From the IMG/VR virus record IMGVR_UViG_3300021335_000080, positions 1 through 25,495 of that record: 25,495 nucleotides of DNA. One strand, 5' to 3'. The notes under the pieces were generated by a model. It was not told the DNA's origin and ran no database searches. It saw nothing but the letters and a program-made list of their open reading frames with translations. The translations under genes and the position numbers were made by a program. This document shows positions 2-15,063 of this stretch, piece after piece (the stretch's first letter is position 1; each line of letters opens with the position of its first letter). The stretch comes from a virus.

Positions 2-529
2 CTAGAAGAAACTGATCCACTAGAGCAAGAGATGCTAGAGATAAAGATAACAGAGAAGCAAGCTAACGCAGCAAGCTCTCGTGGTTACGTTGAGGCTGCA
101 GTACGTAAGTTAAACTTCTTTACGAACCAGTACGACAATCTGATGGAGAAGATAGGTAAAGAAGAACTGACAGAAGAAGACTACGAGCTAGAAGAAATTA
201 AGTACCACATTATGACCTGCATGAAGCAAGCACTTAATAGTGCAAGACCACGACAGGGTGTCATTGATGAAGGTAACATGATATACTTGTTTGACCTTGG
301 TATCAACGCAGCACAGGCACAGGCTGAAGTGTTTGCTTACCTAGAGTGGGAAAACAAAACAATACAGGATGGTAAAGCACCAGAGCATCACCACACAGTA
401 CAGTGGCTAGAACAGTTAGCTGACAAGTGGGCACACTGTCCAGGTGACTTTGCTAACAGCAGAGGTTTTAACATATTAGATAAAACATCTTTGACAAACA
501 CACCACAGTTAGAAAACAAAAGCAAATGA
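2..529 (+). CDS. hypothetical phage protein, 5' end outside window
   Basis: The frame is open from base 2 to the TGA at 527-529, so the gene probably starts upstream of the window. The first in-window ATG is at 32 but has no good Shine-Dalgarno site, and the codons before it (LEETDPLEQE) look like ordinary coding sequence. From that ATG there are 165 residues: an acidic, helix-rich protein with a long Glu/Lys segment (about 35-60) and a histidine-rich patch EHHHT near residue 118. I see no signal peptide, membrane segment or catalytic motif, and I do not recognise the family. It is the first gene of the plus-strand structural block and overlaps the next gene by 4 bases (ATGA), so it is probably co-translated with it. 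Function unknown. Confidence 0.7.
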   Translation, partial: LEETDPLEQEMLEIKITEKQANAASSRGYVEAAVRKLNFFTNQYDNLMEKIGKEELTEEDYELEEIKYHIMTCMKQALNSARPRQGVIDEGNMIYLFDLGINAAQAQAEVFAYLEWENKTIQDGKAPEHHHTVQWLEQLADKWAHCPGDFANSRGFNILDKTSLTNTPQLENKSK

Positions 530-780
530 GTGACATCAAACTTACCCCTGACGATCTAGAGGAAATGCTAGACAACGCAGCTAGACGTGGTGCTAAAGAG
601 GCACTACGTTCTATTGGGTTACTTGATGATGATGCAGCCAGAGACATCATAGAGATGAGAAGTTTGTTAGAAGCTTGGAGAGACACACGTAGGTCTGTTT
701 GGTCTACTGTAGTTAAATTAGCCACTGTCGCACTGTTGACGTTTATTGCAGGTGCAGTGTGGATGACAATGGGTAAATAA
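526..780 (+). CDS. small one-helix membrane protein, DUF6127-like (possible holin)
   Basis: This 84-residue protein has a soluble, charged N-terminal half (ALRSIGLLDDDAARDI, then MRSLLEAWRDTRRSVW) followed by one C-terminal membrane helix (about residues 60-80, TVVKLATVALLTFIAGAVW) and a basic last residue. The pattern G-L-x-D-D-D-A, then L-L-x-A-W-R-D-x-[KR]-R, then a hydrophobic tail, matches what I remember of DUF6127, a small family in alphaproteobacterial phages. That assignment is from memory. The size and single helix would suit a holin or spanin-like lysis accessory, and a lysozyme-like gene lies nearby at 3928-4815, but no lysis function is shown by the sequence. Its ATG overlaps the previous stop (ATGA), so translation is probably coupled. 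Confidence 0.75.
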   Translation: MSDIKLTPDDLEEMLDNAARRGAKEALRSIGLLDDDAARDIIEMRSLLEAWRDTRRSVWSTVVKLATVALLTFIAGAVWMTMGK

Positions 781-790
781 GGAAAAAGAT

Positions 791-3700
791 ATGGTACAAT
801 CTAGTGGTTATAGAGAAGTAGATAGTTACACAAAAGCTGATGGTACAAAATACATTGCCAAAGCTAGTAACAAAAAAACTCAAATTATTAAAGTAGATCC
901 TGAAGGTAAAACAACTTATTTAGCCATACATTCAAAAAAAGGTTCTAGAAGCTCTAACGCAAGTAACGTTGCAGAAGAGTTTGCTGCATTTAAAGAAGGT
1001 TTAGAAGCTGCTGAAGCAGGAGAAAATATAACTTACACTGATGAGGATGTAAATGCTATCAAAGGAGATGGTGGTCTCTTTGGTTTTGGTGGTGATGCAG
1101 CATCTACAGTAACTTTATCTAATGGTACTGTTTTAAGTAGTTCGTCAGGTAGTACTGGTAACGAAGTTAAAACAGTAACAAGATTAGCTGATGAAATAGC
1201 AAATACAGAAGCAATAAAGGTAGAGGATGGTAACGAAGGCGGTAACGAAGGTGGTAACGAAGGTGGTAACGAAGGTGGTAACGAAGGTAATGACGGAAAT
1301 GGAGATGTAAACAAAGGTGGAGATGGAGATGGTGATGGAGATAAAGATAAAATTATAGGTGGTGGTAAAGACGGAACTGGTACAGGTACAGATTTTGTAG
1401 ATACAGAAGTAACTAGACCAACCTTTGTAGAAACTAATCCATCAGTAGAAGTAGTAAATTTAGAAGCTGACGAAGTAGCTCCTATAATACCCTCAACTCC
1501 AAAGACTGTCGTTCAAAAGGTTGCTCCTGTAACATATCAAACTCCTATTACTACACAAACACAACAACAGGCTAAACCTTTTGTAATGGAGCAAGCACCT
1601 CAAACAGGAACGTTTGCTACACCTGTGCAGACTGCAGGATTATCTGCTGTTCCTCAACAGATATCTTATAAAACACACTATGCAGGTACTGCAGGTGCTG
1701 TTCCACAAACACTCGTTACTACTGCCCCAGGATCAGGTGAACAGATTACTTCAGGTTATCAACAAGTTGCTTACATAAATCCAAAAACAAATCAAAGAGT
1801 AATGATTACTGAGTTTAACGGTAAACCTATTACTTACGTGCCGCCTGGTTTTGTACGTCAAAACTTATTAGAGATAAGACAAGATCCTGGATTTGATTAT
1901 AAACTTCTGCCAATTGAACCGAATTCTAAATCTCCTGTTGATAGACCTCTTCCAGGATCTGACATTGAGCCTGGGAGTTCTGGTGGAACTGCTAGAGATA
2001 TAAATGATGGTATGATTTTTTCACAGGGTGGAGATGTCAGTCTAGCTAAAAAGTTTTTAGGTTTTCCAGAGGAATCTCCTGATGATCAGCTTGATAACTT
2101 TTTACAGTCTAACCCTTCTGCTGCTGCACGTATGGGTAAGTACAGACAGGCTATGATGAACATGGGCGGTATGCGTATGGGTGCTCAAGAAGGTACTCTT
2201 GCAACAGTTGTGTCTCCTCCACCTACTTCTGCTCCTGTTGTGGTTAATCCTCTGGCTCAAATGAGTTCTAACTTAGTAAGTCAGACGATGCAACCTATGC
2301 AAGCACCGATAGCAGGGCTTCAACCCACACCTGCAGAGTTTATACCAGTAGACGCAGGTATGACTGTGCCTATGGCTCCGTTTGCTGAAGCTGCTACAAC
2401 AGGCACAACACAGCAAGCATTAATGCCAACTGCTACACAACCAACAGCCATGACTCCTGCCTTTGCAGCACCACAGGTACAAGCTGTAACTGGTGCGTTA
2501 CAACCTGCTCAAGGAACTTTATCACAACAGGCTCAAGTAGGTGCTGCTCAACAAGCTACTACTTCTGTAACAGGTATGGAGGCTGCTCAAGGTGCAGCAA
2601 TAAAAGTAGAAGGACCAACAGCTAGAAAACTAGAGACAGATCCTGTATCAGGTGAGAGTGAGATTATCTCTGGCTCTGCTAACGCTGAGACTGCTAGGGC
2701 TTTTACTGAAGCTGTAGAAGCTGAGACTGCTACCCCTACTAAACAGGCTACAGTGCAAGGTCAGCTAGAAGGATTAATGGCTCAGTTCGAGGGTGGTAAC
2801 ACACCTGCTTGGGCTTCAGGAGCTATGAGAGCCGCTACGAGTACTATGCTTGCAAGAGGTCTTGGTGCTTCTTCTATGGCAGGACAGGCTATTGTTCAGG
2901 CTGCTATGGAGTCTGCACTACCTATCGCACAAATAGATGCTGCTACACAGGCTCAGTTTGAAGCACAGAACTTGTCTAACAGACAACAACGTGCTATGCT
3001 TGGAGCACAACAACGTGCTCAGTTTATAGGACAAGAGTTTGACCAAGCGTTTCAGGCTCGTGTGCAGAACGCAGCTAAGATTGCTGACGTAGCTAACATG
3101 AACTTTACTGCTGAACAACAGATAGCGTTAGAGGATTCTCGTGCAGCTAACACAGTAAACTTAAACAATTTATCCAATAGACAGTCTATGGTTATGGCAG
3201 AAGCTGCTGCTCTATCTCAACTAGATATGGCTAACCTATCTAACAGACAACAGGCTTCTGTACAGAACGCACAAAACTTCTTACAGATGGATATGTCTAA
3301 CCTGTCAAACAGACAACAGACAGAGGTATTCAAAGCACAACAAAACATACAGTCTTTGTTTACCGATCAGGCTGCAGAGAACGCTGCTGAACAATTCAAC
3401 GCAGCAAACCAAAATCAAACAGACCAGTTCTTTGCTAACTTATCTAATCAAACATCACAGTTTAACTCTGTCCAAGCAAATGCTATGGATCAGTTTAACG
3501 TCAACAGTGTCAACGCTCTGAGAGAGTTTAACTCACAGATACAACAGCAAAGAGATTTGTTTAACGCACAGAATGGTTTGGTGATAGCACAGGCTAACGC
3601 TCAGTGGAGACAAAACTTGGCTACTCTTAACACCTCTGCACAGAACGAAAGCAACATGGCTTTTGCTCAGACTATAAACGCTTTGACATCTACTAACCTT

Positions 3701-3913
3701 GACTCAATATGGCAGAGAGAAAGAGATATAATGTCTATGGCTTTCCAAGTGTCAGAAAGTAACGCTGACAGAGCTAACAGTATTATACTTCAAAAGATGG
3801 CTGCTGATGCTGAGATAGATGTTGCTGAGTTACAGGCTAAGATAGGGGCTGCTCAGTCAAAAGGTAATTTTATTGCTGAAGTAGTTAAAAAGATAATACC
3901 TTTACCGTTTTAA
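791..3913 (+). CDS. large virion protein with GGNE repeats and a hendecad-repeat domain
   Basis: This 1040-residue protein has an AAGGA ribosome site just before its ATG. N-terminal part (1-145): unremarkable and soluble. Residues 147-195: an extreme Gly/Asn/Asp/Glu linker with five GNEG repeats and then DGDGDGDKDK. Residues about 210-640: a Pro/Gln/Thr/Val-rich region containing one compact block near 290-360 (ITYVPPGFV). Residues about 654-715: a block that I recall as conserved in marine phage structural proteins (APWASGAMR-like; here PAWASGAMRAATSTMLARGL). Residues 727-1023: a continuous 11-residue repeat, with NLSNRQ marking several units, predicted to be one very long helical domain. 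The end, VVKKIIPLPF, is hydrophobic and basic. Neighbours are structural and lysozyme-like genes. It could be a tail, needle or ejection protein. A virion role is inferred from context and composition; the exact role is unknown. Confidence 0.8.
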   Translation: MVQSSGYREVDSYTKADGTKYIAKASNKKTQIIKVDPEGKTTYLAIHSKKGSRSSNASNVAEEFAAFKEGLEAAEAGENITYTDEDVNAIKGDGGLFGFGGDAASTVTLSNGTVLSSSSGSTGNEVKTVTRLADEIANTEAIKVEDGNEGGNEGGNEGGNEGGNEGNDGNGDVNKGGDGDGDGDKDKIIGGGKDGTGTGTDFVDTEVTRPTFVETNPSVEVVNLEADEVAPIIPSTPKTVVQKVAPVTYQTPITTQTQQQAKPFVMEQAPQTGTFATPVQTAGLSAVPQQISYKTHYAGTAGAVPQTLVTTAPGSGEQITSGYQQVAYINPKTNQRVMITEFNGKPITYVPPGFVRQNLLEIRQDPGFDYKLLPIEPNSKSPVDRPLPGSDIEPGSSGGTARDINDGMIFSQGGDVSLAKKFLGFPEESPDDQLDNFLQSNPSAAARMGKYRQAMMNMGGMRMGAQEGTLATVVSPPPTSAPVVVNPLAQMSSNLVSQTMQPMQAPIAGLQPTPAEFIPVDAGMTVPMAPFAEAATTGTTQQALMPTATQPTAMTPAFAAPQVQAVTGALQPAQGTLSQQAQVGAAQQATTSVTGMEAAQGAAIKVEGPTARKLETDPVSGESEIISGSANAETARAFTEAVEAETATPTKQATVQGQLEGLMAQFEGGNTPAWASGAMRAATSTMLARGLGASSMAGQAIVQAAMESALPIAQIDAATQAQFEAQNLSNRQQRAMLGAQQRAQFIGQEFDQAFQARVQNAAKIADVANMNFTAEQQIALEDSRAANTVNLNNLSNRQSMVMAEAAALSQLDMANLSNRQQASVQNAQNFLQMDMSNLSNRQQTEVFKAQQNIQSLFTDQAAENAAEQFNAANQNQTDQFFANLSNQTSQFNSVQANAMDQFNVNSVNALREFNSQIQQQRDLFNAQNGLVIAQANAQWRQNLATLNTSAQNESNMAFAQTINALTSTNLDSIWQRERDIMSMAFQVSESNADRANSIILQKMAADAEIDVAELQAKIGAAQSKGNFIAEVVKKIIPLPF
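1229..1288 (+). repeat. five tandem 12-bp repeats encoding GNEG
   Basis: Five adjacent copies of GGTAACGAAGGT lie inside the 1040-residue virion protein gene. The first copy ends in C instead of T; the others are identical. Each copy adds four residues (G-N-E-G) in frame, so changes in copy number would lengthen or shorten the linker without a frameshift. A second, less regular GATGGAGATGGT-type run follows at about 1319-1350 and encodes the DGDGDG stretch. Confidence 0.95.
2969..3859 (+). repeat. 27-unit hendecad (11-residue) protein repeat
   Basis: Residues 727-1023 of the virion protein fall into 27 consecutive 11-residue units with no insertion or deletion. Units beginning with NLSNRQ start at 727, 793, 815 and 837, all multiples of 11 apart. 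Seven units end in Phe: the unit ending at 847 and then six in a row ending at 869, 880, 891, 902, 913 and 924. Many units start with Asn (870, 892, 903, 914, 925, 936, 947). Eleven-residue periodicity is the signature of hendecad coiled coils. At 1.5 angstroms per residue a single helix of this length would span about 45 nm. The DNA copies have diverged, so this is an old protein repeat, not a recent tandem duplication. Confidence 0.85.
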
Positions 3914-3927
3914 ATTAAGGATTAAAT

Positions 3928-4815
3928 ATGTTAAACTCATTACAAGATAAAAGAAGAAAAAAAATAATGCTTGAGCAGGGCAATCCTGAGTTAAGTGTGG
4001 GTAATCCTGGAGTTAAACGTAAAAGAAAAGCTCTTGGTAATCCTGATTTTGATTTTAGTGAAACGAGAGAAGGTGTTAGGAGAGCACAAAATGACTCAAA
4101 AGAAAAACCTGAAAAAAATACCGATAGTCTTAATGCTTTTGCAACTGGGTGGATGGAGGAAATAAGACAAGCATTTGCTGATGAAGATCCTTTATTTAAA
4201 GAACAAAGAGCTAGTCTTGAGGGTGGTGTTCCTGACTACTACAAGGGCATTGATATAGATACTGCATTTGATTCTAAAGAGTCTCAAGATAAAAGAAATA
4301 AATCTGTAGATCAGAACAGAGCAGCAGGTGAAAACCTACCTTCTTTTATTATTCAAGGATCTAAATTTAGAAAAGCTTTGTCTGGTGTAGAAGCAGAGAA
4401 TTATAAAACTCTTTTTGGTAACGCAGAAGAAAAGAAAACACCATTTAAAGATGTAGACATAACTACTATGCCTATGAAAGATATATTTAGTCTGGTAGAA
4501 TTGAATGGAAAGTTTCACAAATTTAATCTTTCTAAGGGTGAAGATACCACAGCCATAGGTAAATACCAAATGGTAGGAAACACGCTAAGAGATTTAAAGA
4601 ATAGAAATGTTTTAAAAGAACTTGGTATAGATGATGACACTCTCTTTAACGAAAATACTCAGGACAAAATAGCAGTTCGCCTAGCTGAAAGAAGAGTAAG
4701 ACAAAAGTTTTCAATGACAGAGGCTAGAAAAGAAATGAGAAATGAGTGGGAAGGTTTTAAAAAGTTGAGTGATAAAGAACTAAATGCAATAATTAACGAG
4801 GTTCGTGGAGGTTAA
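3928..4815 (+). CDS. lysozyme-like (muramidase-type) virion or lysis protein
   Basis: This 295-residue protein starts at an ATG preceded by AAGGAT. The N-terminal 45 residues are basic and carry three GNP motifs (19, 25, 37). The middle (50-140) is charged and probably flexible. The C-terminal domain (about 155-260) runs NYKTLFGN (158), PFKDVDITTMP, TTAIGKYQMVGNTLRDL (207-223) and NENTQDKIAVRLAERR (241-256). The order Y-x-x-L-[FL]-G, then [AT]-x-G-x-YQ[IM]VG-x-TL-R, then Q-D-x-[IL] matches a lysozyme-like phage domain known especially from Rhodobacteraceae phages and prophages. I cannot point with confidence to the catalytic acid; E191 and E205 are candidates. Its place inside the structural block suggests a virion-associated peptidoglycan hydrolase, though a lysis endolysin is possible. 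There is no signal peptide. The next gene starts one base after its stop codon. Confidence 0.65.
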   Translation: MLNSLQDKRRKKIMLEQGNPELSVGNPGVKRKRKALGNPDFDFSETREGVRRAQNDSKEKPEKNTDSLNAFATGWMEEIRQAFADEDPLFKEQRASLEGGVPDYYKGIDIDTAFDSKESQDKRNKSVDQNRAAGENLPSFIIQGSKFRKALSGVEAENYKTLFGNAEEKKTPFKDVDITTMPMKDIFSLVELNGKFHKFNLSKGEDTTAIGKYQMVGNTLRDLKNRNVLKELGIDDDTLFNENTQDKIAVRLAERRVRQKFSMTEARKEMRNEWEGFKKLSDKELNAIINEVRGG

Positions 4816-4816
4816 G

Positions 4817-5329
4817 ATGACAGAAGCAGCACTCATGGCAGCAGTGCCAGGACAATCTCTTACGGACTATCCTAAGAACTATCCCTGGGAAAGACCACCT
4901 GAAATGATAGACCCTAATGAAGCTATCAAGTTTCATATCGACAGGGTTTCAGAGCCTGATATTATAGACAACATATTAGATGCTATTGATTTTGGCATAC
5001 CTGTAAAGACACTCTCTGAGTCTATGATGACAGGGGCTGTAGCTTCAGGTGTTCACAGCATAGATGTAAGTCTTATCGTTGAACCCATTGTCAGAGAATT
5101 TATTATGAAGGCTGCTGACATGGCAGGGGTAAAATATAAAGAGGCATTTAAACCTGACGAATTAACTATGACAGAACGTGCATCCTTGTTTAACGATGCT
5201 GTTGAGTCAACACCTGAAGGTGAGAGAGACAAAGGATTTGACCTAGTTAAAGAAGCTTCTGAGTCAATGCGAGAAGAGCCAGTAGAAAAAACAACAGAAG
5301 AAGAACCTAAAGGTTTAATGGCGAGGTAG
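4817..5329 (+). CDS. conserved marine-phage virion-type protein
   Basis: This 170-residue protein is given the ATG start at 4817 because GGAG lies six bases upstream. An in-frame GTG at 4805 would overlap the previous gene and place that ribosome site inside the coding region. The N-terminus has PGQSLTDYPKNYPWERPPE (residues 11-29), followed by an alpha-helical segment ending in GVHSIDVSLIVEPIV. The combination of PGQSLT, PWERPPE and a later HSIDVSL motif is one I remember from uncharacterised structural proteins of cyanophages and other marine phages. The last 35 residues are very acidic (EEPVEKTTEEEPKG). The gene lies between the lysozyme-like protein and two internal-virion-like genes. Function is unknown, and the virion role is inferred from position. 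Confidence 0.75.
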   Translation: MTEAALMAAVPGQSLTDYPKNYPWERPPEMIDPNEAIKFHIDRVSEPDIIDNILDAIDFGIPVKTLSESMMTGAVASGVHSIDVSLIVEPIVREFIMKAADMAGVKYKEAFKPDELTMTERASLFNDAVESTPEGERDKGFDLVKEASESMREEPVEKTTEEEPKGLMAR

Positions 5330-5334
5330 TTTAA

Positions 5335-6270
5335 ATGGTAACAGGAACAGTAATGGCAGGTGCTTTCTTTGGTAATCTAGCAGATACCATGAAAGAAAAC
5401 AGAGAGTATCTGAAAGCAAAGCAGGGTATGCTTCAAGATTACATGTTAAAAGCAGGTTTTGAAGAGAGAGCTAACTTAAAGAAAGCTAGAGCAGAAAGAG
5501 CAAAGCTCTTAGCAGAAGCAGATAATCTTGGACTTGATAAGGAAGCTTCAGCAGTTTTGTACTCTACTGGTCAACTGTCAAGCACTGTAGGTTATTTAAA
5601 AAAGATAGAGCAGTCTGAAGATCCTGATAAGAAGATAAACAAAGCAGGACTAAAAAGATTTAGTGAGACTATTGTAGGAAGTTTACCTCCTGAAAAAGTA
5701 GGTGCTGCTATGAAGTACGCTTTTGATTTAGGGGCTGCAGAAGATCCAAGTTCTGACAAACTAGTAGAAGCTATACATGCTACATCACTAAGTGAGTATG
5801 ATGAAGCTATATCTTCATTTATGAATACGTCACCTACTACTCGTGTAGCTCCAAACATAAGCCCTTTTGACATTAACAAAAGAGGTTTGGTAGACTATGA
5901 TCCTGCAGATATAAAAGCAGCTAGAGAAATTATAGAAAAGAATTTAAAGACACAATTAGAAACAACAACAAATCCTAACACTGGTCAGTTACAATTTACA
6001 AACCCAGACGCTTCAGGTGAAATTTTAAATAACGCAGTAGATTTTTACGTTAGTGAAATGATTGATCCAATAAAATCAAAAAGTCAATCTGAAGTATTAA
6101 GAGACATCTCCAACAGAGTAGACGCTCTAACTGAAGATCCAACAATAACTTTAAGAGATATTGCAGACAACTTTAAAACGTTTGAAGTTCCGCTTCCGTT
6201 TCAGGGACCAATTCCTTTAAACTCTAACACTGCTGAACAAGATATTATTGATCAAGAGTATAATTTATAA
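5335..6270 (+). CDS. putative internal virion protein, 311 residues
   Basis: The ATG at 5335 follows GAGGT, which overlaps the previous stop codon. The N-terminus (MVTGTVMAGAFFGNLADTM) is small-residue and glycine rich and mildly hydrophobic, followed by a long charged helix (about residues 20-65, rich in Lys/Glu/Ala) that may form a coiled coil. The rest is soluble and helical, ending with a Pro-rich stretch (EVPLPFQGPIPL) and an acidic tail. There is no enzymatic motif. Its stop overlaps the start of the 1116-residue gene (TAATG), so the two are probably translated together and may act together, as T7 gp14-16 do. The role is inferred from position; I cannot name a family. Confidence 0.7.
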   Translation: MVTGTVMAGAFFGNLADTMKENREYLKAKQGMLQDYMLKAGFEERANLKKARAERAKLLAEADNLGLDKEASAVLYSTGQLSSTVGYLKKIEQSEDPDKKINKAGLKRFSETIVGSLPPEKVGAAMKYAFDLGAAEDPSSDKLVEAIHATSLSEYDEAISSFMNTSPTTRVAPNISPFDINKRGLVDYDPADIKAAREIIEKNLKTQLETTTNPNTGQLQFTNPDASGEILNNAVDFYVSEMIDPIKSKSQSEVLRDISNRVDALTEDPTITLRDIADNFKTFEVPLPFQGPIPLNSNTAEQDIIDQEYNL

Positions 6271-9200
6271 TGAGCACTTACGTACAAAAAGCACCTGACT
6301 CTAGTTTTATTAATCTTGTTGAAGACAATGATTTTAAAAGAGACTTAGTTAGTTTCTTTAGTGGTGGTAGGTATAAGTATACCAAAGATGAAATGAGAGA
6401 AATGGGTTTTGAAAATCTAACTAAAGATTTTATAGAACACATGAGAGCACAATCAGTCAACGAAGTCACTGCCACAAAAGATTTAAATTATGTTCGCAAC
6501 AAAGACTTTAGCTACAAAGGTAAGCAAGCTTTTGGTAGGCTGACTCAGGCGTGGGATAATTCTAAAGAAGCAGGTACAGGTTTCTTGGATGGTCTTGGAG
6601 ACTTTGCAGAAGGAGCAATTACAGCACCGTCTACTTACTTGGGGTTTGCTAGTTTTGGTCTTGGAAAAGTAGGGGCTAAAATAGCATCTAAAGGTGTTCA
6701 GTTAGCTGTCAGAGCAGGTCTAAAAGAAACTCTAAAGAAGAATGTACTTAAGTCTTCTATCGCAAGACAGTCTGTAAAAGACGCAGGTACAGGTGCGGTA
6801 ACTGGTGCTCTTGTATCTGGGTTTCAGGGTAAACAACAGGGTGAAACTAGGGAAGAGCTTGGAGTAGGTCCAGAGTACACAGCAAAAGATTTAATCTTTG
6901 ATTCTACTGTAGGTGCTGTAGCTGAAGGAACTTTTGGTGCAGCCACAGGATACATCTCTGGAAGAATAGGTAGAGGTAGAGCTAAAGAAGTAGCAGATGT
7001 AATGTTGGAAAGAAACACTACATTTAAGAAGCAAGCAGAAGAGGCTGCTAAAAAATCTCTTGGAACTATAAAGGCTGCTTCAGACGCTGAGAAGAAACAA
7101 GCTATGAATATTGTAGCTGATGTAGAGGATATACTGTCTGCTCGTGCAGGAGTAAGAGGTGCTAAGATAAAAGGTAGGTTAGATCCTGAACGTGTAGCCA
7201 AGGGTAGAGCTATCCTTAACGCAATGTCAGATCCAAAAGCAAACCCAGAGTTTAGTTCTGGTCTTTCAGCACAAACAATGAGAGGTATTGCTGCTGCTAG
7301 TGTAGATCTCATGAGAGCTTTAAAGTTAGATACTAAGAGTGGTGATATCAGAATTACTGAGGCTATAGCTAACAAGCTGAGAGATGGAGAGGGTCAAGAA
7401 GTATTTACAATACTCAAGAATGTAAAAGATAAATACGGTCTTTCCAAAGATGAGTTCTCTATGATCTACCTATCTGAGGTATCAAGAGCAGGTCAAACAC
7501 TAGGGTTTCAGAGTGCTATAAAACGTGGTGCTAAGATAAACTTAGACGAAGCATCTGACATAGATGTTTTGTTTTCTAAGGGTGCTTCATCTATCAGCAG
7601 TCAAGATGCACAGGAAATATCTTCAGCAGCAGTTAGAAACTCTAGAAATGTTGGTGTTAGATTTTTACAAGACTTAGATACCATGAGAATATCTTTTATG
7701 ACTTCTCAACCTGCTACTACAATGCGTAACTTAACCAACGTAGGTATCCTTATTGGAACAGATATGGTAGACCAAGTTAACAAGGCTATCTACAAAGGTC
7801 TTACTGGTGACGCATCTCAAATAAAAACTTTTATACCTAACATGACAGCCGTTGTCAGAGGTCTTTCTTTTAACAACACAGAGGCTAAATTACTACGTCA
7901 AATTATGTTAGAGGAAATGCCAGAGCAATCCATGCGTTTATACAATCAAGCTATGAGACTTGAGGTTGGTATGGAAAGCAGTGGAGTTTTAGCTAGAGTA
8001 GGTAGGTTTGTAAACATGGCTAACACTCTTTCTGATTCTGTTTTTAAAGAGGGTATCTTCTACGGAAATCTAGAGAGACAGTTCAGAGACAAAGGTATGT
8101 CCATGTCTGACTGGTTAAGGGCCAACACAAAGTTAGAAGATCTACCAGAAGGAATAGATCTAACCCTTGCTGTCGATGACGCAAACAGACTTACCATGCA
8201 GAGAGACTTTAGAGGTGCTGACTCTGTACTAGCAAGCACAACAAGAGGGTTAGTAAACTTAAATAGAAAAGTACCATTCCTTGTTTCAGCAGCAGCAGGT
8301 GTTCCCTTCCCAAGATATTTAGGCAATCACCTACAGACGGTATCTGACTACGCTCCTATCCTTGGAGAGATGTTACATAGATCAGGTCTAACTGAAGGTG
8401 CTAAAGATGATGCTACTAGATATGCACGTCAAGCCACTGGAGCTATGATGTTGTTTGCAGGATATCAGATAGCTAAAGATAGAGATGGTGAAGTTGACTA
8501 CGGATCTATAAAGAATGAGCTAGGAGCAAAAGAGGATCTCAAACCTTTGCTTGGTGCTGCCATGTTCCATATGTATTTAGGTGATCAAGCATGGAGAAAA
8601 GAGAATGGTCTTCCTACTTCTTTTGATAACACAGATCAGCTAAAGAGAGACTTACAAGATGTTCTTGGTGGTATACCAGAATTTTCTTTTGACCTTGGTA
8701 TTCCTGTTGCAATATTAGATGCTGTAGCAAAACAAAAAATAACACCAGACTTAGAGAAAAAGTTTGGAGATTTCTTATCTACATTTACCATGCCAGGTGC
8801 GATAGCAAGAGACTTGATAGGACAAGCAGACTATGATCAAGCAGGTAATCCTTACACCAGAGAACTAGCAATCACAGATGATGTAAAGCTAGACTACAGT
8901 GGTGCTGAGATGACCAACAGAGCACTGAGGATGTTGCCTGATGTGAGATCTAGACAGTACCTACAATCTTTTAATGATGAGACAGATATTTCTTACTATG
9001 ACTTTGACAACCCTGTAGCTAGAGGTAAAGTAAACCCTGCTCTAAAACAGATTACTGGTAGAACAGCAGAGCCACCTCTTACAACACTACAAAAAGAAAT
9101 GTCTAGATACAATTTAAAGAACTGGCAGATATATGGAAGCACTGCAACAAAGAGTGCTAACGTTGATCTTGTCTTGAGAGAAAGACTAGCTAAGTCAATG

Positions 9201-9620
9201 TACAAAGACTTTGAAAACTGGAAGTCTAAAGCTCCTGCTTCAAAGAAGTATGAGGAGATGACTTACGATGAGATCGTAGCCAGTGATAGTATCTCTAACT
9301 TAGATAAAGCTAATCTTCTTGAGGGTTGGATTAGAAAGAAAATAAGAAAAGGAAAAGAACAAGTCGAAGCTTTGTTTGATTCTTTCTTATCAGAAAATGA
9401 GAGTAAGATAAAAGCTAGAGGATATATTAGAAATAATTATATAATTTATTCTAAAGATAAAGGCGGTAAGCAAAACTTAAATACTGCTGCACAAACCCTT
9501 GGGTTTAAAACAGCAGATGAGTACTTGGCTGAGTCTGAGACTATATCGGATGAATTAACAAGAAGAATGAAACTTCTAGCCATAGTTCCAAACATAAGAG
9601 AGAACGAACCATACGACTAA
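6270..9620 (+). CDS. very large internal virion / ejection-like protein, 1116 residues
   Basis: This is the last gene of the plus-strand arm, starting at an ATG that overlaps the previous stop by one base. Residues about 100-240 contain glycine/alanine-rich hydrophobic stretches (ITAPSTYLGFASFGLGKVG, TGAVTGALVSGF, GTFGAATGYISG), of the kind seen in phage proteins that interact with or cross membranes during DNA ejection. Further on are conserved-looking blocks: MTSQPATTMRNLTNVGI (about 475-492), KVPFLVSAAAGVPFPRYLGN (about 667-687) and TGAMMLFAGYQIAKD (about 718). The C-terminal third is charged and helical. I see no transglycosylase active site in it; the lysozyme-like domain is on the separate 295-residue protein instead. 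Size, position and composition resemble internal virion proteins of marine podoviruses. It ends five bases before a terminator hairpin. Confidence 0.75.
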   Translation: MSTYVQKAPDSSFINLVEDNDFKRDLVSFFSGGRYKYTKDEMREMGFENLTKDFIEHMRAQSVNEVTATKDLNYVRNKDFSYKGKQAFGRLTQAWDNSKEAGTGFLDGLGDFAEGAITAPSTYLGFASFGLGKVGAKIASKGVQLAVRAGLKETLKKNVLKSSIARQSVKDAGTGAVTGALVSGFQGKQQGETREELGVGPEYTAKDLIFDSTVGAVAEGTFGAATGYISGRIGRGRAKEVADVMLERNTTFKKQAEEAAKKSLGTIKAASDAEKKQAMNIVADVEDILSARAGVRGAKIKGRLDPERVAKGRAILNAMSDPKANPEFSSGLSAQTMRGIAAASVDLMRALKLDTKSGDIRITEAIANKLRDGEGQEVFTILKNVKDKYGLSKDEFSMIYLSEVSRAGQTLGFQSAIKRGAKINLDEASDIDVLFSKGASSISSQDAQEISSAAVRNSRNVGVRFLQDLDTMRISFMTSQPATTMRNLTNVGILIGTDMVDQVNKAIYKGLTGDASQIKTFIPNMTAVVRGLSFNNTEAKLLRQIMLEEMPEQSMRLYNQAMRLEVGMESSGVLARVGRFVNMANTLSDSVFKEGIFYGNLERQFRDKGMSMSDWLRANTKLEDLPEGIDLTLAVDDANRLTMQRDFRGADSVLASTTRGLVNLNRKVPFLVSAAAGVPFPRYLGNHLQTVSDYAPILGEMLHRSGLTEGAKDDATRYARQATGAMMLFAGYQIAKDRDGEVDYGSIKNELGAKEDLKPLLGAAMFHMYLGDQAWRKENGLPTSFDNTDQLKRDLQDVLGGIPEFSFDLGIPVAILDAVAKQKITPDLEKKFGDFLSTFTMPGAIARDLIGQADYDQAGNPYTRELAITDDVKLDYSGAEMTNRALRMLPDVRSRQYLQSFNDETDISYYDFDNPVARGKVNPALKQITGRTAEPPLTTLQKEMSRYNLKNWQIYGSTATKSANVDLVLRERLAKSMYKDFENWKSKAPASKKYEEMTYDEIVASDSISNLDKANLLEGWIRKKIRKGKEQVEALFDSFLSENESKIKARGYIRNNYIIYSKDKGGKQNLNTAAQTLGFKTADEYLAESETISDELTRRMKLLAIVPNIRENEPYD

Positions 9621-10728: not shown

Positions 10729-12627
10729 TTAAGCTCCTATGTCTACCACCTCACAGACATCACCAGTGCAAGCCATTGCCTGACTTGACGTAGTAGTGTC
10801 CTCTTTTTCATACTCGCTGAGTCTAGACCAGTCAATAGTTTTTGGCATAGTAACTAAAATATTTTTGTATTCTTCTTTGTCTATCTCCTGATACGGAGCT
10901 TGTTGATAAGTGTGTTCGTTATAGGGTAGAAAAGATACACCACTCATTTCATCGAAGTGTTCATACACAAATGTTCCAACCTCAAACCATTCATCTTTCT
11001 TGACGTTGATTGTTACACTAGGTTTGTGCTCTGACCAGTGCCTCTGATACATCAACCACATTTTAAGTTGGTCAACAGCAGACAAGTCAGATGTAACTAC
11101 AGCCTTGTTAGGAGCTTTAACAGGAAACGAGAACACTGTTGTTTGGTCTGGTTTAAATACGTCAGGCTCACTAGGAATACCCTGATCCTTCATGAAAGTG
11201 GTAAGAGGATCTTTGTTATCTCCTCTAACGGTTCTAACGTAATAAGGTGAATGACGTGCATGGATTCCAGAGGCAGAGTCAACCAACTGTGAGACTGTAC
11301 CTGATGGCTTGACACAAGTAATAGCTGCCGACTGTGGAATACCAAGACGATCAGCCCACTCAGCATTAGTAACAACAGCAACGTTACGTAAGTTCTCAAG
11401 GGTTTTATCCAGTCCTTTATTCTTTGTAGTCATAAGAGGGTTATCCATTATACCTGTAAGACTTACACCTAAGAGTCTTTCTTCTTCTGTGTTTGTTGTC
11501 CAGATTTTTCTGAGGTATGGAAACTTTGTGTACGTGCTTTGGATCGTCCCAAGTATTGTGGCGAGTTTGACTTTTCTAGCCAGGTCATCCACCGTATCTG
11601 TGGCTCGTACCACAACTTCCGTAAGATTGCAGAACTGATACGGTCTAAGAATAATCTCACTACAGGGATTAGTTCCGAAGTCAAAATCAGAATTACGTCT
11701 GCCATTCTTTGCAGCCTGTCTCTTAGATGCCTCACGATTAAATATACCACGTTCACCACTCCCTGATTCTACTAGTGCCATCCACTCACGCATGAAGGAC
11801 AGACTATCTGGTTTCTCTGTGTATGCTACACTGTTGTTAGCCAAGGCACGTTGGGGTTCGTTATCCCACCAGTTACCAGACTTAGCATGACGCATACGAT
11901 CATCTGATAGATTAGATAAAGATATCATAGCAGACCTACGTACTCCACCTACAACTACTATCTCTCCTATCTTACACATTAGATCGTGGCACTCTATTGA
12001 GGATAGCTTACGTCCTTCTGCTTCTCTAAACATTTTAACTGTAAAGTTAAATAAATCTACAAGAGGAGCAGGACCAGAGGCTCTACCACCAAATGTTTTT
12101 AACCTTGCACCTGCAGGTCTTACCCTGCTTACATCCCATAGTGGAACCTCACCTGCCCATAGGAGTACTAGTAATTGTCTGAACGCTTTAGCCCATCCCT
12201 CCTTGCTGTCCTTTACCACAATGGTAGTATCACTATCGAAGAGTTTAGGAATTTCGGGAAGCTTGCTAATGAACTGTCTCTCAACACTGAAGCCAACACC
12301 AGTACCACAGAGGAGGATAAACATAGCCTCATCGAAGGACTTTGGGTCATCTACAGGTAAGTAACTACAGTTATATCCTGCAGTGTTATCTCTGTCTAAA
12401 GCTATACCTGCTGTCATCATAGCTCTCATGCTAGGCATGATCTCTAAGTTAAGTATAGCAAACATTATTTCATCTTTAGTATCTGAGTCTACTTTGTCAC
12501 CTATAACATTCTCTATGTAACGATCTACTGTTTCAGGCCATGCTTCTCTGCCTTTACCATCAAAGTATTTAGCGTACCTTGATGTGTGAATAAATGCTTG
12601 GTAATCTGTTGGTAAGTAATTGTTCAT
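10729..12627 (-). CDS. nrdJ: adenosylcobalamin-dependent class II ribonucleotide reductase
   Basis: This enzyme makes deoxyribonucleotides from ribonucleotides using coenzyme B12, needs no oxygen and no separate radical subunit. All expected cysteines are present: C87 (GYNCSYLP), C322 in NPCSEI with E324 (thiyl radical site) and C333 (FCNLTEV) exactly 11 residues later, and a C-terminal redox pair C620/C625 (ACTGDVCEV). These match C119, C408, C419, C731 and C736 of the Lactobacillus leichmannii enzyme in order and spacing. PSGTVSQLVDSASGIHAR (441-458) is a further signature. At 632 residues it is about 100 shorter than that 739-residue enzyme. It overlaps mazG by 4 bases (ATGA). The host must make or import B12 for it to work. 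No intein is present. Confidence 0.96.
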   Translation of the reverse strand: MNNYLPTDYQAFIHTSRYAKYFDGKGREAWPETVDRYIENVIGDKVDSDTKDEIMFAILNLEIMPSMRAMMTAGIALDRDNTAGYNCSYLPVDDPKSFDEAMFILLCGTGVGFSVERQFISKLPEIPKLFDSDTTIVVKDSKEGWAKAFRQLLVLLWAGEVPLWDVSRVRPAGARLKTFGGRASGPAPLVDLFNFTVKMFREAEGRKLSSIECHDLMCKIGEIVVVGGVRRSAMISLSNLSDDRMRHAKSGNWWDNEPQRALANNSVAYTEKPDSLSFMREWMALVESGSGERGIFNREASKRQAAKNGRRNSDFDFGTNPCSEIILRPYQFCNLTEVVVRATDTVDDLARKVKLATILGTIQSTYTKFPYLRKIWTTNTEEERLLGVSLTGIMDNPLMTTKNKGLDKTLENLRNVAVVTNAEWADRLGIPQSAAITCVKPSGTVSQLVDSASGIHARHSPYYVRTVRGDNKDPLTTFMKDQGIPSEPDVFKPDQTTVFSFPVKAPNKAVVTSDLSAVDQLKMWLMYQRHWSEHKPSVTINVKKDEWFEVGTFVYEHFDEMSGVSFLPYNEHTYQQAPYQEIDKEEYKNILVTMPKTIDWSRLSEYEKEDTTTSSQAMACTGDVCEVVDIGA

Positions 12628-13013
12628 CTGTTGTCTCCCGATCCTTGTAGTGTTCCTCTTTTTTCCCTATCATCTAACTTAGCTACATTTTTCTCCATTA
12701 CAATAGCTAAGTTCTCACCAAAATGATTAGCTAGTGCAGTTACGTAAAATAAAACATCACCCAGTTCTTTAACTATTTCCTCAGAGGAAACTTTGTTTCT
12801 ATCTCTTATCTTTTTCTTTATCTTCTCTGCTACTTCTCCTGCCTCTCCTACAAGACCAAGTGTGTTCTCTATAAGTCTGTCATCACCTGTTGTTACAATT
12901 TTCTTTTCAACCCAGTCTGTGTAGTCTGCAAGAACTGTGCTGTTCTCTGGTTTGTTTAAATCAAATTGATCAAAGTATCCCATGTCTTCTAAGTCTTTAC
13001 CTGTAATCATCAT
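12624..13013 (-). CDS. mazG: MazG-like nucleotide pyrophosphohydrolase
   Basis: This 129-residue protein contains GLVGEAGEVAEKIKK (53-67) and VKELGDVLFYVTALA (81-95), giving the E57-x-x-E60 and E83-x-x-D86 metal-binding pairs of all-alpha NTP pyrophosphohydrolases. The C-terminal segment EKNVAKLDDREKRGTLQGSG is also typical of phage MazG-like proteins. The family hydrolyses (d)NTPs to monophosphates. In phages it is thought to clean or rebalance the pool, or to alter ppGpp signalling in the host. It is translationally coupled at both ends: its ATG overlaps the stop of the 53-residue gene and its stop overlaps the nrdJ start (both ATGA). This places nucleotide turnover and deoxynucleotide synthesis under joint expression. 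Confidence 0.93.
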   Translation of the reverse strand: MMITGKDLEDMGYFDQFDLNKPENSTVLADYTDWVEKKIVTTGDDRLIENTLGLVGEAGEVAEKIKKKIRDRNKVSSEEIVKELGDVLFYVTALANHFGENLAIVMEKNVAKLDDREKRGTLQGSGDNR

Positions 13014-13171
13014 TTTTCCTTTACATCTATCTCTATTATTTCAACATCATCAATATCGTACACTGCGTAAGATACGGCTTGTTCAAGTCCTATCTTTGCA
13101 CCATCCTTATCTGCAGCTATAAAGTTAGCGTCAGAATCTAAGTCAAGTAGCATTGTTATTTCAAACAACAC
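13010..13171 (-). CDS. 53-residue conserved-looking small protein (GTG start)
   Basis: A GTG start at 13171 lies five bases after a perfect GGAGG, making a better initiation site than the in-frame ATG at 13153. The product begins (M)LFEITMLLDLDSDANFI, continues AADKDGAKIGLEQAVSYAV and ends YDIDDVEIIEIDVKEK, an acidic alpha/beta-looking protein with a strand, helix, strand pattern. The stop overlaps the mazG ATG (ATGA). The strong ribosome site, overlap and codon structure make it a real gene despite its size. I recall similar short phage proteins that begin with a strand of the form [FV]E[VI]TM, but cannot name a family. Function unknown. Confidence 0.8.
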   Translation of the reverse strand: MLFEITMLLDLDSDANFIAADKDGAKIGLEQAVSYAVYDIDDVEIIEIDVKEK

Positions 13172-13213
13172 AGGAACCTCCAAGTTATAAGAATTAAATT
13201 AAACACGTCAAGA

Positions 13214-13600
13214 TTATTCTTCAAGCCACTCATCAGGTATTACCTTTTGAGCATATTTAAATCCATGACGTTTACACCAGTCACCGTAGGAAGACTTAGC
13301 ACCCTTATATAACTTGGCTCTGCTATTCTGAAACACAAACCTCAAGTCTAACTCAGGGTATTGTTTCTTTATCTCTACGTGCTTACGTCTGTCGTTAGAT
13401 ACAAAACGTCCTTTGGTTTCTATTACGATACCATTCTCTAAGATAAAGTCAGGTGTGTAGTGTCGAGTCCTAACATCTAACCACTCTATACGTTCTTTCT
13501 CGTAGGTAAACTTGATACCTTTTTTCTTTAAGTACTTAGCTGTGTCATCCTCAAAACCAGAACGATACCCTGCCTTTATAGCCCTGGATCTAGTACTCAT
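13214..13600 (-). CDS. T7 gp3-like endonuclease I (Holliday junction resolvase)
   Basis: This 128-residue protein matches phage endonuclease I along nearly its whole length (T7 gp3 is 149 residues). The active-site residues are all present: E17 (GYRSGFED), D51 (YTPDF), E61 and K63 (VIETKGRF), with the same spacing as T7 E20, D55, E65 and K67. It continues with FVFQNSRAKLYKGAKSSYGD (88-107), typical of the family. The enzyme works as a dimer, cutting branched DNA and Holliday junctions and degrading host DNA for nucleotide reuse. The ribosome site is weak, and the gene starts only six bases after the upstream exonuclease stop, so it is probably read from the same transcript. Confidence 0.95.
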   Translation of the reverse strand: MSTRSRAIKAGYRSGFEDDTAKYLKKKGIKFTYEKERIEWLDVRTRHYTPDFILENGIVIETKGRFVSNDRRKHVEIKKQYPELDLRFVFQNSRAKLYKGAKSSYGDWCKRHGFKYAQKVIPDEWLEE

Positions 13601-13606
13601 AATTAA

Positions 13607-14392
13607 TCACAACCACTCAGGTTTTTGAATAACAGTGTAGTCACCCCAACCTGTACTATAATCAGAATCCTTTTCTGCTTTTGCAATAATAGCTAAAGTT
13701 TTATGCAGTTGCTTCATACCCCAGTGCATAACTTCTGGACCCATCACATGTACGTGTGAAAGAAATGGTGCAGTCTTTTCACAGGCAATAAAAGAAAAAT
13801 TATCTACTTCATAACCTGCCAGTTTACATGCGTAAACGTAGTGAGCACCCTGTAAAAGATAGCCATACTTCAGACACTCTTTTAAGAAACCTCTTGGACT
13901 AGCATCCTGTGTTGTCTTTACATCGTAGACTGTACCTTCTTTTTCTATCAGTAAGTCTGGACGAGTTTTCAAAGTTAATCCTGAGATAGGATCTTCTACA
14001 AAGATACTGATCTCGTTTAATCTATCAGGGTGATTTAAGTATGATGCACACACAGGATTGTTTAGAGCACCCCTGGTTATACAGTTAGCCACGTTAAACT
14101 CTACCTCAGTAAGTAAGATTTGATCTTCATCAAGGTTGGCTTGCATCTCTTTAAATGCTGTACTTGATTTAGTCTTTGGTCCTTTAACTACTAGGTTACG
14201 TTCTTTCTCTAGTAGGTTAGCGTGTACTGCACTTCCCATTGCAAAGGCTGCGTTGTTAGAGTTACGCTTCTCACCCTTCCAGTGTGCCAGTGTCTTTTTA
14301 TATACAGCCTTTACAGCACTTGAAGAAACACCACTGGTTGAGTGATACTCTTCATTAGACATATCTGTTATTATTTCTTTTTTATATTCCAT
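13607..14392 (-). CDS. PD-(D/E)XK exonuclease (RecE / exonuclease VIII-like, DUF3799 type)
   Basis: The 261-residue protein has the RecB/RecE-like nuclease layout: GSAVHANLLE (53-62) on the first helix, E127 (LNEISIF), RPDLLI with D146, YDVKTTQDASP with D157 and K159, and the QGAHYVYAC helix with Q181. These are the conserved H, E, D, D-x-K and Q-x-x-x-Y positions of the superfamily, seen also in phage recombination exonucleases. It probably degrades one DNA strand to create 3' single-stranded ends for recombination, or acts in place of the T7 gp6 exonuclease, which is not seen in this window. A GAGAGAG ribosome site precedes the ATG. The gene begins just after the SSB terminator. The C-terminal part (KHDKxLAIIAKAE-like) is helical. 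Confidence 0.9.
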   Translation of the reverse strand: MEYKKEIITDMSNEEYHSTSGVSSSAVKAVYKKTLAHWKGEKRNSNNAAFAMGSAVHANLLEKERNLVVKGPKTKSSTAFKEMQANLDEDQILLTEVEFNVANCITRGALNNPVCASYLNHPDRLNEISIFVEDPISGLTLKTRPDLLIEKEGTVYDVKTTQDASPRGFLKECLKYGYLLQGAHYVYACKLAGYEVDNFSFIACEKTAPFLSHVHVMGPEVMHWGMKQLHKTLAIIAKAEKDSDYSTGWGDYTVIQKPEWL

Positions 14393-14413
14393 GTCTCTCT
14401 CTCATTATAAAAT

Positions 14414-14450
14414 AGCCCCCACCTAAAAATGAACGAAAAAGATGGGGGCT
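14414..14450 (-). terminator. intrinsic terminator after the SSB gene
   Basis: Read on the minus strand, AGCCCCCATCT (14450-14440) pairs with AGGTGGGGGCT (14424-14414), an 11-bp stem with one G-U pair and a 15-base loop, followed by TATTTTAT. The G-U pair becomes an A-C mismatch on the plus strand, which supports a minus-strand RNA. It lies between the SSB stop (14481) and the exonuclease start (14392). The imperfect U tract suggests partial read-through to downstream genes. Confidence 0.8.
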
Positions 14451-14480
14451 TAGTCTTCTAGGGTAAAAAGGAACTAAAAC

Positions 14481-15005
14481 CTAGAAGGGTATTGAGTCCT
14501 GTGGTTCTTTTTGGGAGGAAGACTTACCACTAGAACTCTTACTGTGATCTGTAAACATTTCAGAGGCTGACTGGGAGGAGCCACCCTCACTGTTATAAAC
14601 CACATGATCAAGAACTTGAAGACCCATAAGACGTGTACCTACAAGACCTTTCTTTGTACGATACACCTCAACTTTAACAATACCTTTGCTTCCGTTACCG
14701 ATAAAACCGTTATCGTCTAGACTCCAGGCTTTACCTGCAATGTCAGCTATGACAGGCTCACCGCCCATCCAGTCCTCAGTACCAGTGTGAGGGCGTGACA
14801 CAGTGAGTCTATACCCACCGTCTACTTCCTCTATTTTCTTTTGACATCCTGCTTTCTTCAAAGCATCTGCTGTTTTCTTGTCGGTGGTTACAGTAACCTT
14901 GTACTCACCGTTAGTATCAATATTCCATTCGGCTTGATCTCTGTTGGACTCAAATACTTTTGCCCATTCGATTGTACCTTTAATATCTATTTGTGTTGAT
15001 GGCAT
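14481..15005 (-). CDS. T7 gp2.5-like single-stranded DNA-binding protein
   Basis: This 174-residue protein begins with a strand-rich OB-fold-like region (EWAKVFESNRDQAEW, then YKVTVTTDKKTADALKKAG) and continues GIVKVEVYRTKKGLVGTRLMG (a strand pair) before a Ser/Gly/Lys-rich linker (about 140-165). It ends EPQDSIPF, with the terminal phenylalanine characteristic of gp2.5-type and other phage SSBs, where the tail contacts polymerase and helicase. The tail is less acidic than in T7. The overall order matches phage gp2.5-type SSBs, which are poorly conserved in sequence. A strong AGGAGGG site precedes the ATG. The gene sits between polymerase and exonuclease and appears to have its own -35 element and terminator, fitting the high copy number SSBs need. 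Confidence 0.88.
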   Translation of the reverse strand: MPSTQIDIKGTIEWAKVFESNRDQAEWNIDTNGEYKVTVTTDKKTADALKKAGCQKKIEEVDGGYRLTVSRPHTGTEDWMGGEPVIADIAGKAWSLDDNGFIGNGSKGIVKVEVYRTKKGLVGTRLMGLQVLDHVVYNSEGGSSQSASEMFTDHSKSSSGKSSSQKEPQDSIPF

Positions 15006-15034
15006 ACTGCCCTCCTTTTCTTTTACTGTTGTTA

Positions 15035-15063
15035 CATCTAATATTTTTTATTGTAGTTGTCAA
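15035..15063 (-). promoter_or_regulatory. candidate sigma70-like promoter for the SSB gene
   Basis: On the minus strand a perfect TTGACA (15063-15058) overlaps the polymerase stop codon. Seventeen bases downstream is TAGATG (15040-15035), a weak -10 with only three consensus positions. An AT-rich spacer and AGGAGGG (just upstream of the SSB ATG) follow. The -35 is convincing by itself, but it partly encodes the last residues and stop of the polymerase, so chance is possible. Confidence 0.4.

Follow-up and report, generated by a model that had tools for sequence, protein, structure and literature searches.

The window, by which we mean the whole stretch of 25,495 bases analysed here, has the gene layout of the HMO-2011-type short-tailed marine phages. 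Close to its start lies the gene of a large protein, called protein X below, and the features of this gene and its surroundings are as follows.

526..780, + strand: small DUF6127 protein directly upstream of X (Pfam PF19622, E 1.6e-22)
791..3913, + strand: protein X gene, an ORF of 1040 aa, with relatives found by tblastn in 27 phage records
1228..1288, + strand: GGNE-encoding 12-nt tandem repeat (Tandem Repeats Finder) in the variable N-terminal part of X
2738..2968, + strand: conserved pre-rod stretch, residues 650-726, with PAWA and ALPIAQIDA motifs, seen in alignments; residue 706 is the first landmark
2969..3859, + strand: rod of 27 hendecads, residues 727-1023; the second landmark, Trp939, lies at nt 3605-3607
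3860..3910, + strand: C-terminal tail of X, 17 residues, variable, basic and partly hydrophobic
3928..4815, + strand: probable cell-wall hydrolase, residues ~152-293 of which match endolysin families
4805..5329, + strand: 174-aa partner gene, found 3' of X in 116/116 loci with enough flank
5335..6270, + strand: 311-aa protein in a gp15/gp20-sized gene position, a putative function taken from order and size
6270..9620, + strand: 1116-aa protein in a gp16-sized gene position, its putative function likewise taken from order and size

The product of 3928..4815 matches phrog_14527 (unknown function, 1.2e-11) and phrog_90 (endolysin, 6.1e-10). Across loci the genes 3' of X typically begin with a hydrolase-like or other variable gene, which some loci lack, and continue with genes of about 160-200, 290-970 and 800-1330 aa; the partner count is based on loci with a complete X stop codon and at least 2.6 kb downstream. 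The AlphaFold2 model of the ~174-aa partner has a pLDDT of 80.6, and a fold search of the PDB gave no clear match for it (nothing below E 1.8, best Z 4.3), while the 174-, 311- and 1116-aa proteins of the window had no informative match in Pfam and PHROG. In size and order this small-medium-large series resembles gp14/gp15/gp16 of T7, gp7/gp20/gp16 of P22 and gp73/gp72/gp71 of DEV, judged by the ejection-gene sizes given in passages of PMC8954989 and PMC10925440.

The records that carry X are those of HMO-2011, CRP roseophages, HTVC pelagiphages, CHOED, Slicky01, MQM1, Aeromonas phage 1233, rhizobial phages and one metagenomic podovirus, and in all 27 the protein is annotated as hypothetical, except for one 'huntingtin' and one record without annotation. 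A pattern search of IMG/VR added at least 597 relatives among the 599 matches listed. Protein X belongs to a large family without annotation that occurs in phages of the HMO-2011 type and in related ones, and searches of the open-access literature gave no description of it. It has no match in Pfam and NCBIfam, and its sole PHROG match, phrog_10432 (unknown function), covers residues 146-200, i.e., the GGNE region. Alignments show that about 370 C-terminal residues are conserved, the N-terminal part being variable in length and sequence. Among 52 diverse relatives, five carry a C-terminal S74 chaperone domain, which a domain search did not find in the X of the window, and one carries LysM. Four of the 52 match phrog_4287 'DNA ejection protein' and five phrog_6121 'virion structural protein'; like the LysM domain, these labels lean towards an ejection role, and the S74 domain may partly lie behind both sets of matches. 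The basic hydrophobic tail reported by the initial annotation is present, but its sequence varies among the relatives and a membrane-spanning role is ruled out by the Kyte-Doolittle values: none of 117 relatives (122 distinct ones minus five with an S74 ending by a crude test) reaches a mean of 1.6 over 17 residues, and 34 reach 1.0.

The gapless run of 27 units of 11 residues claimed for residues 727-1023 was confirmed at exactly these coordinates. Identity autocorrelation against 1000 shuffles gave z values of 4.75, 7.46, 3.66 and 4.68 at lags 11, 22, 33 and 44, and heptad-type lags remained flat (lag 7, z = -0.62; lag 18, z = 0.83). The NLSNRQ motif recurs on the hendecad grid as described, starting at residues 727, 793, 815 and 837, six units in a row are indeed closed by Phe (the first at residue 869, step 11), and an 11-residue signal is also present in the periodicity of the hydrophobic residues (5.1 at period 11). 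Under profile scoring the common register was the best fit in 20 of the 27 units, with 2.5 expected, the exceptions starting at residues 738, 749, 760, 782, 848, 958 and 1002; since the profile, built from 50 relatives with other lengths, includes homologous positions, this test is not fully independent. The repeat is genuine and conserved, and the family as a whole shows it far more strongly than the window does by itself, so that the strict long register first read from a single sequence gains from the relatives. The GGNE linker said to flank the rod belongs elsewhere: its repeat (about residues 147-166) lies some 560 residues upstream and therefore does not flank the rod.

Relatives differ in rod length by whole units. 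We measured the distance between a MESALPIAQ-type motif (residue 706 in the window) and the Trp of an SN..WR-type motif (residue 939), which in the window is 233 = 11 x 21 + 2. Expressed as 11k + 2, with k = 21 in the window, the same rule held in 135 of 137 measured relatives of a first set of 149 loci, 12 of which were unmeasurable at first. One of the two off-rule relatives, L089, had a mis-set landmark and by hand fits with k = 31; the other, L134, is longer by a single residue. L096 and L097, earlier unmeasured, by hand fit the rule with k = 15. A later set of 262 further loci came from searches with more distant members; 259 gave an ORF, and 57 of these could not be measured for want of landmarks. 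The Trp landmark was here used in a fixed form, without the two alternative endings permitted in the first set, and at least four contigs had already been in that set. All 202 measured loci of this set, representing 144 of 144 distinct cores, obeyed 11k + 2, with k values of 11, 14, 15, 20, 21, 22, 25, 29, 31, 39, 41, 49 and 51. As a straight helix, 11 to 51 units between landmarks would span roughly 18 to 84 nm. On a tree of 124 representatives, which between them show 17 distances including one that breaks the rule, Fitch counting gave 24 length changes (25 with weak nodes collapsed), and shuffled labels averaged 74. When 16 relatives were aligned to the window, 22 of 35 gaps had lengths divisible by 11. 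Of the remaining 13, 12 were split gaps that sum to multiples within their own protein, which the total length forces, and the last was the extra residue of L134. Most gaps cluster around residues 715-770 and 900-940, with a single one close to 838. The distance from the first to the second Trp was 35 in 133 of 134 proteins. Kept across lengths that differ more than fourfold, the whole-unit rule is an unusually clean natural record of a rod held in exact helical register.

A rod as a ruler of the host envelope is not supported. The phages CRP-3 (k = 15) and CRP-207 (k = 20) share the host strain FZCC0040, which argues that the host does not fix rod length; among pelagiphages k is 15 or 29. The whole-unit variation also brings to mind an internal ruler, i.e., a podovirus counterpart of the siphophage tape measure, in which the number of hendecads would set the length of some virion part. 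Passages of PMC3271669 describe tape measure proteins with 11-residue units marked by Trp or Phe, the number of which can vary; X shares the units, the Phe markers and the varying unit number, and 143 of 334 distinct proteins have six Phe/Trp in a row at step 11. The seven-marker step-11 Pattern 1 given in the same passages was, however, found in none of 402 proteins, the longest run being six, and neither X nor its relatives matched a tape-measure family in Pfam, NCBIfam or PHROG. Passages of PMC9038755 also describe the phage group as short-tailed. We regard this explanation as highly doubtful.

What kind of helix the rod would form can be read from its hydrophobic residues. The AlphaFold2 monomer model of the rod, made with 67 sequences, contains helix only, which agrees with part of the claim of a single 45-nm helix, but the model breaks it into three long helices (residues 695-767, 774-902 and 909-1035), and its confidence is low (pLDDT 64, pTM 0.25). 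On an 11/3 helix, the bulky hydrophobic residues of the window give a first harmonic of 0.4 and a second harmonic of 8.2. The single-core signal that hendecad coiled coils usually show is absent, 69% of shuffles being as high as this fundamental. In 20 of 20 proteins tested the second harmonic was significant (p <= 0.01), whereas the first harmonic reached p < 0.05 in none of them. This describes a helix whose hydrophobic residues form two seams on opposite sides instead of one face. In 22 proteins the seams fall on columns b, f, j and k, d, h; of the two faces between them, one (c, g) is Gln-rich and the other (a, e, i) Asn-rich or charged. No heptad signal is seen at 7/2, where the rod of the window scores 0.1 and ten relatives score 0.1-2.6. 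As a control, the coiled coil of the P22 needle gp26 gave a first harmonic of 7.2 and a second of 9.6 at 7/2.

Two further readings of the periodicity were dismissed. A single amphipathic helix lying on a membrane was ruled out because the first angular harmonic is absent. A beta-solenoid, conceivable from the 2.2-residue period of 8.2, was rejected since AlphaFold2, at low confidence, placed no strand in the rod and Gly and Pro together make up only 4 of its 297 residues; a period of 2.2 residues also arises as the second harmonic in an 11/3 helix. A 2.75-residue component is significant in most of ten proteins and in the window exceeds the two-seam period (9.9 vs 8.2). The tube model proposed below does not explain it, and sharp column preferences are the one account we can offer.

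The arrangement of the seams bears on how copies of X might be packed. Across the c/g face, the angle from one seam to the other is 162 degrees (bootstrap 160-163), or 175 with Ala counted; under a simple ring model, a trimer should give 60, a hexamer 120 and a decamer 144. The same measurement on 33 residues of the phiX174 pilot protein H, a known decamer, gave 164, or 142 with Ala, and the method therefore cannot fix the ring size. A small coiled coil around one core seems unlikely from this pattern, which would fit a wide tube or a flat sheet. X might sit in the head as an internal core or portal-associated sheet, its seams holding it in a flat array or a large helix ring with a structural or assembly role and no conduit. 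Large rings or sheets are compatible with an angle of 162-175 degrees between the seams, and gp72 of DEV forms a 12-mer ring around the portal according to passages of PMC10925440. A sheet would nevertheless leave the Gln-rich face and the large length range without explanation, and we consider it improbable.

The initial annotation had offered a tail needle, a fibre or an ejection tube. An external needle or fibre would be a long helical shaft that contacts the envelope or penetrates it and that in some relatives bears a removable tip chaperone. P22 gp26 and S74-bearing fibres share with X the long helical rod, the S74 domain of five of the 52 relatives and a similar gene position, needle gene 26 lying two genes before the ejection genes of P22; rods of up to 51 units would also be easier to hold outside the virion, and the X profile also picks up gp26 (p 0.009 at 55 residues). 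Yet gp26 is a one-face coiled coil and X a two-seam helix in which the single hydrophobic face was absent from 20 of 20 proteins, and neither X nor the 52 relatives matched the needle families phrog_1219 and phrog_1030, which gp26 itself matches. A trimeric or hexameric needle or fibre around one core is not supported because there are two opposite seams and no single face, so that this part of the claim is unlikely to hold; the ejection-tube idea is the part that gained support.

One of the closest known patterns is that of phiX174 H, a DNA-delivery protein to which X is likened by sequence pattern. According to passages of PMC7354561, H forms a decameric tube of 170 A, in which Asn, Gln and Arg occupy 18 of 23 inward positions and which starts with three hendecads. 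When H residues 151-183 are scored on the X profile, each of the three units in the best phase has Gln on c and g; column b then holds Met or Ile, column j Leu or Ile and column i Glu, the same preferences as in X. An Asn/Gln/Arg-rich face between hydrophobic contacts, as in an H-type tube, is thus seen in X as well. The shuffle p for H against the X profile was 0.015 for these 33 residues, 0.0008 for 140-183 and 0.056 for 151-194, and local shuffling over the whole protein gave 0.04-0.06; the heptad half of H did not match (p 0.91), and in its hendecads, too few in number, the second harmonic was not significant (p 0.28 on 44 residues). The match to H is statistically weak, and the P22 needle does just as well on the profile. 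Unlike H, in which three hendecads are followed by heptads, X has 27 hendecads in the window and no heptad signal. The phage carrying X is a dsDNA podovirus, phiX174 an ssDNA microvirus, and homology between X and H is undetectable; phrog_1471, the family of H, matched H itself but neither X nor the 52 diverse relatives. We read the likeness as a similar working pattern rather than common descent.

Building on the register, the whole-unit changes, the two seams and the conserved partner gene, together with a helix predicted at low confidence, we propose that X is a pilot-type ejection protein of short-tailed phages, ejected to form an alpha-helical DNA tube whose length is set by the number of hendecads. 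We hold this explanation with moderate confidence. The rod would be an alpha helix of 11/3 geometry that carries its two hydrophobic seams on opposite sides, one face between them being Gln-rich (c, g) and the other Asn-rich or charged (a, e, i). Several copies could pack laterally via both seams into a hollow tube whose lumen the Gln face would line. X and its neighbours would leave the virion, and the tube could then carry DNA across part of the cell envelope. The gain or loss of whole hendecads, which would set the rod length, would keep both seams in phase. We infer from the sequence patterns and gene order that X oligomerizes into a tube, is present in the virion, is ejected and transports DNA; the length rule and the two-seam pattern stand as firm sequence results. 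The 11k + 2 rule, the indels at several sites of the rod, the two seams, the H-like Gln phase and the ejection-like gene series speak for the tube. Several observations weigh against it: the AlphaFold2 model is a low-confidence monomer with the rod broken twice, the angles between the seams would also suit a flat sheet or a ring of more than ten copies, the host does not fix rod length, and the longest rods, which if straight would measure about 84 nm from landmark to landmark, seem to exceed what a periplasm can hold. The same applies to the tail, which is not transmembrane, to the lack of a match to solved structures and to the S74 domains in five of the 52 relatives, such domains being best known from trimeric fibres.

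To our knowledge, the crossing of the envelope by short-tailed phages is known in atomic detail for few phages only, and the X family provides a candidate tube for an abundant marine phage group. With tube length written in countable units, geometry and function are testable across natural members. More tentatively, X might represent a pure-hendecad DNA conduit of dsDNA podoviruses, with whole-unit length changes from 11 to 51, the face code of the H tube and the place of a fourth ejection component beside the T7-type three. If the tube is real, ssDNA and dsDNA phages would use the same Gln-faced hendecad solution for DNA carriage. Compared with the T7, P22 and DEV sets, X would be an extra protein before the series, without sequence match, and passages of PMC8954989 and PMC10925440 describe no rod of this kind in those ejection proteins. 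The known ejection families phrog_805, 598 and 917 did not match X or the 52 diverse relatives.

When 13 non-family proteins were compared with the X profile at two lengths each, T7 gp14 and P22 gp7 gave p 0.016 and 0.022 at 33 residues, and 0.096 and 0.189 at 55. This likeness, suggestive at the shorter length, is lost at the longer one, where the P22 needle scored best of these three, and we place no weight on it. Compared with solved structures, X had no match by sequence or fold, the PDB fold search with its weak model giving nothing below E 5.7. With the same weak model, a fold search of a viral library returned three matches below E 0.001 at 26-32% identity; the viral-library match W8FPS3 has 460 residues, the same length as the CHOED relative.

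The rod of X, the 1040-residue protein, is more strongly periodic at a lag of 22 residues than at a lag of 11 (window 2969-3859), as it is in long relatives, e.g., the loci L227, L231 and L409, and all the longest members have an odd number of hendecads between two fixed rod landmarks (29, 31, 39, 41, 49 and 51). Taken together, these two features hint that duplications within the rod often insert pairs totalling 22 residues. The hydrophobic pattern of the window rod has a 2.75-residue component of 9.9, versus 8.2 for the 2.2-residue component that corresponds to two opposite hydrophobic faces, and the model of a hollow DNA tube of side-by-side rods gives no explanation for the former.

Two phage homologues of X carry extra domains:
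L096:2411-4942, homologue of phage CRP-235, LysM domain at the N-terminus (residues 71-110)
L082:8419-10539, homologue of phage HMO-2011, additional C-terminal module of about 70 residues

The LysM domain suggests that the CRP-235 homologue would contact peptidoglycan. The HMO-2011 module is aromatic-rich and absent from the other 19 sequences of the same alignment.

The following genes accompany X in the window:
526-780, DUF6127 protein (E 1.6e-22), adjoining X upstream
4805-5329, 174-residue helical protein
10729-18613, minus strand, B12-dependent ribonucleotide reductase, family A DNA polymerase and primase-helicase, identities read by eye and from synteny to HMO-2011

The DUF6127 protein, which has a hydrophobic C-terminus, is perhaps holin-like. 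The 174-residue partner occurs together with X in all 116 loci with enough flank; its family consensus has a PWERPPE motif near the start and GLMAR at the end, and the helical protein has no clear known fold. The minus-strand genes are transcribed in opposition to the structural block.

X relatives were also found in bins whose labels include Flavobacteriales, Neomarinimicrobiota, Rhodobiaceae and Maricaulis (L399-L414). Since contigs identical in name and size recur in two separate bins (L399-L402), some of these are probably misbinned phage contigs.
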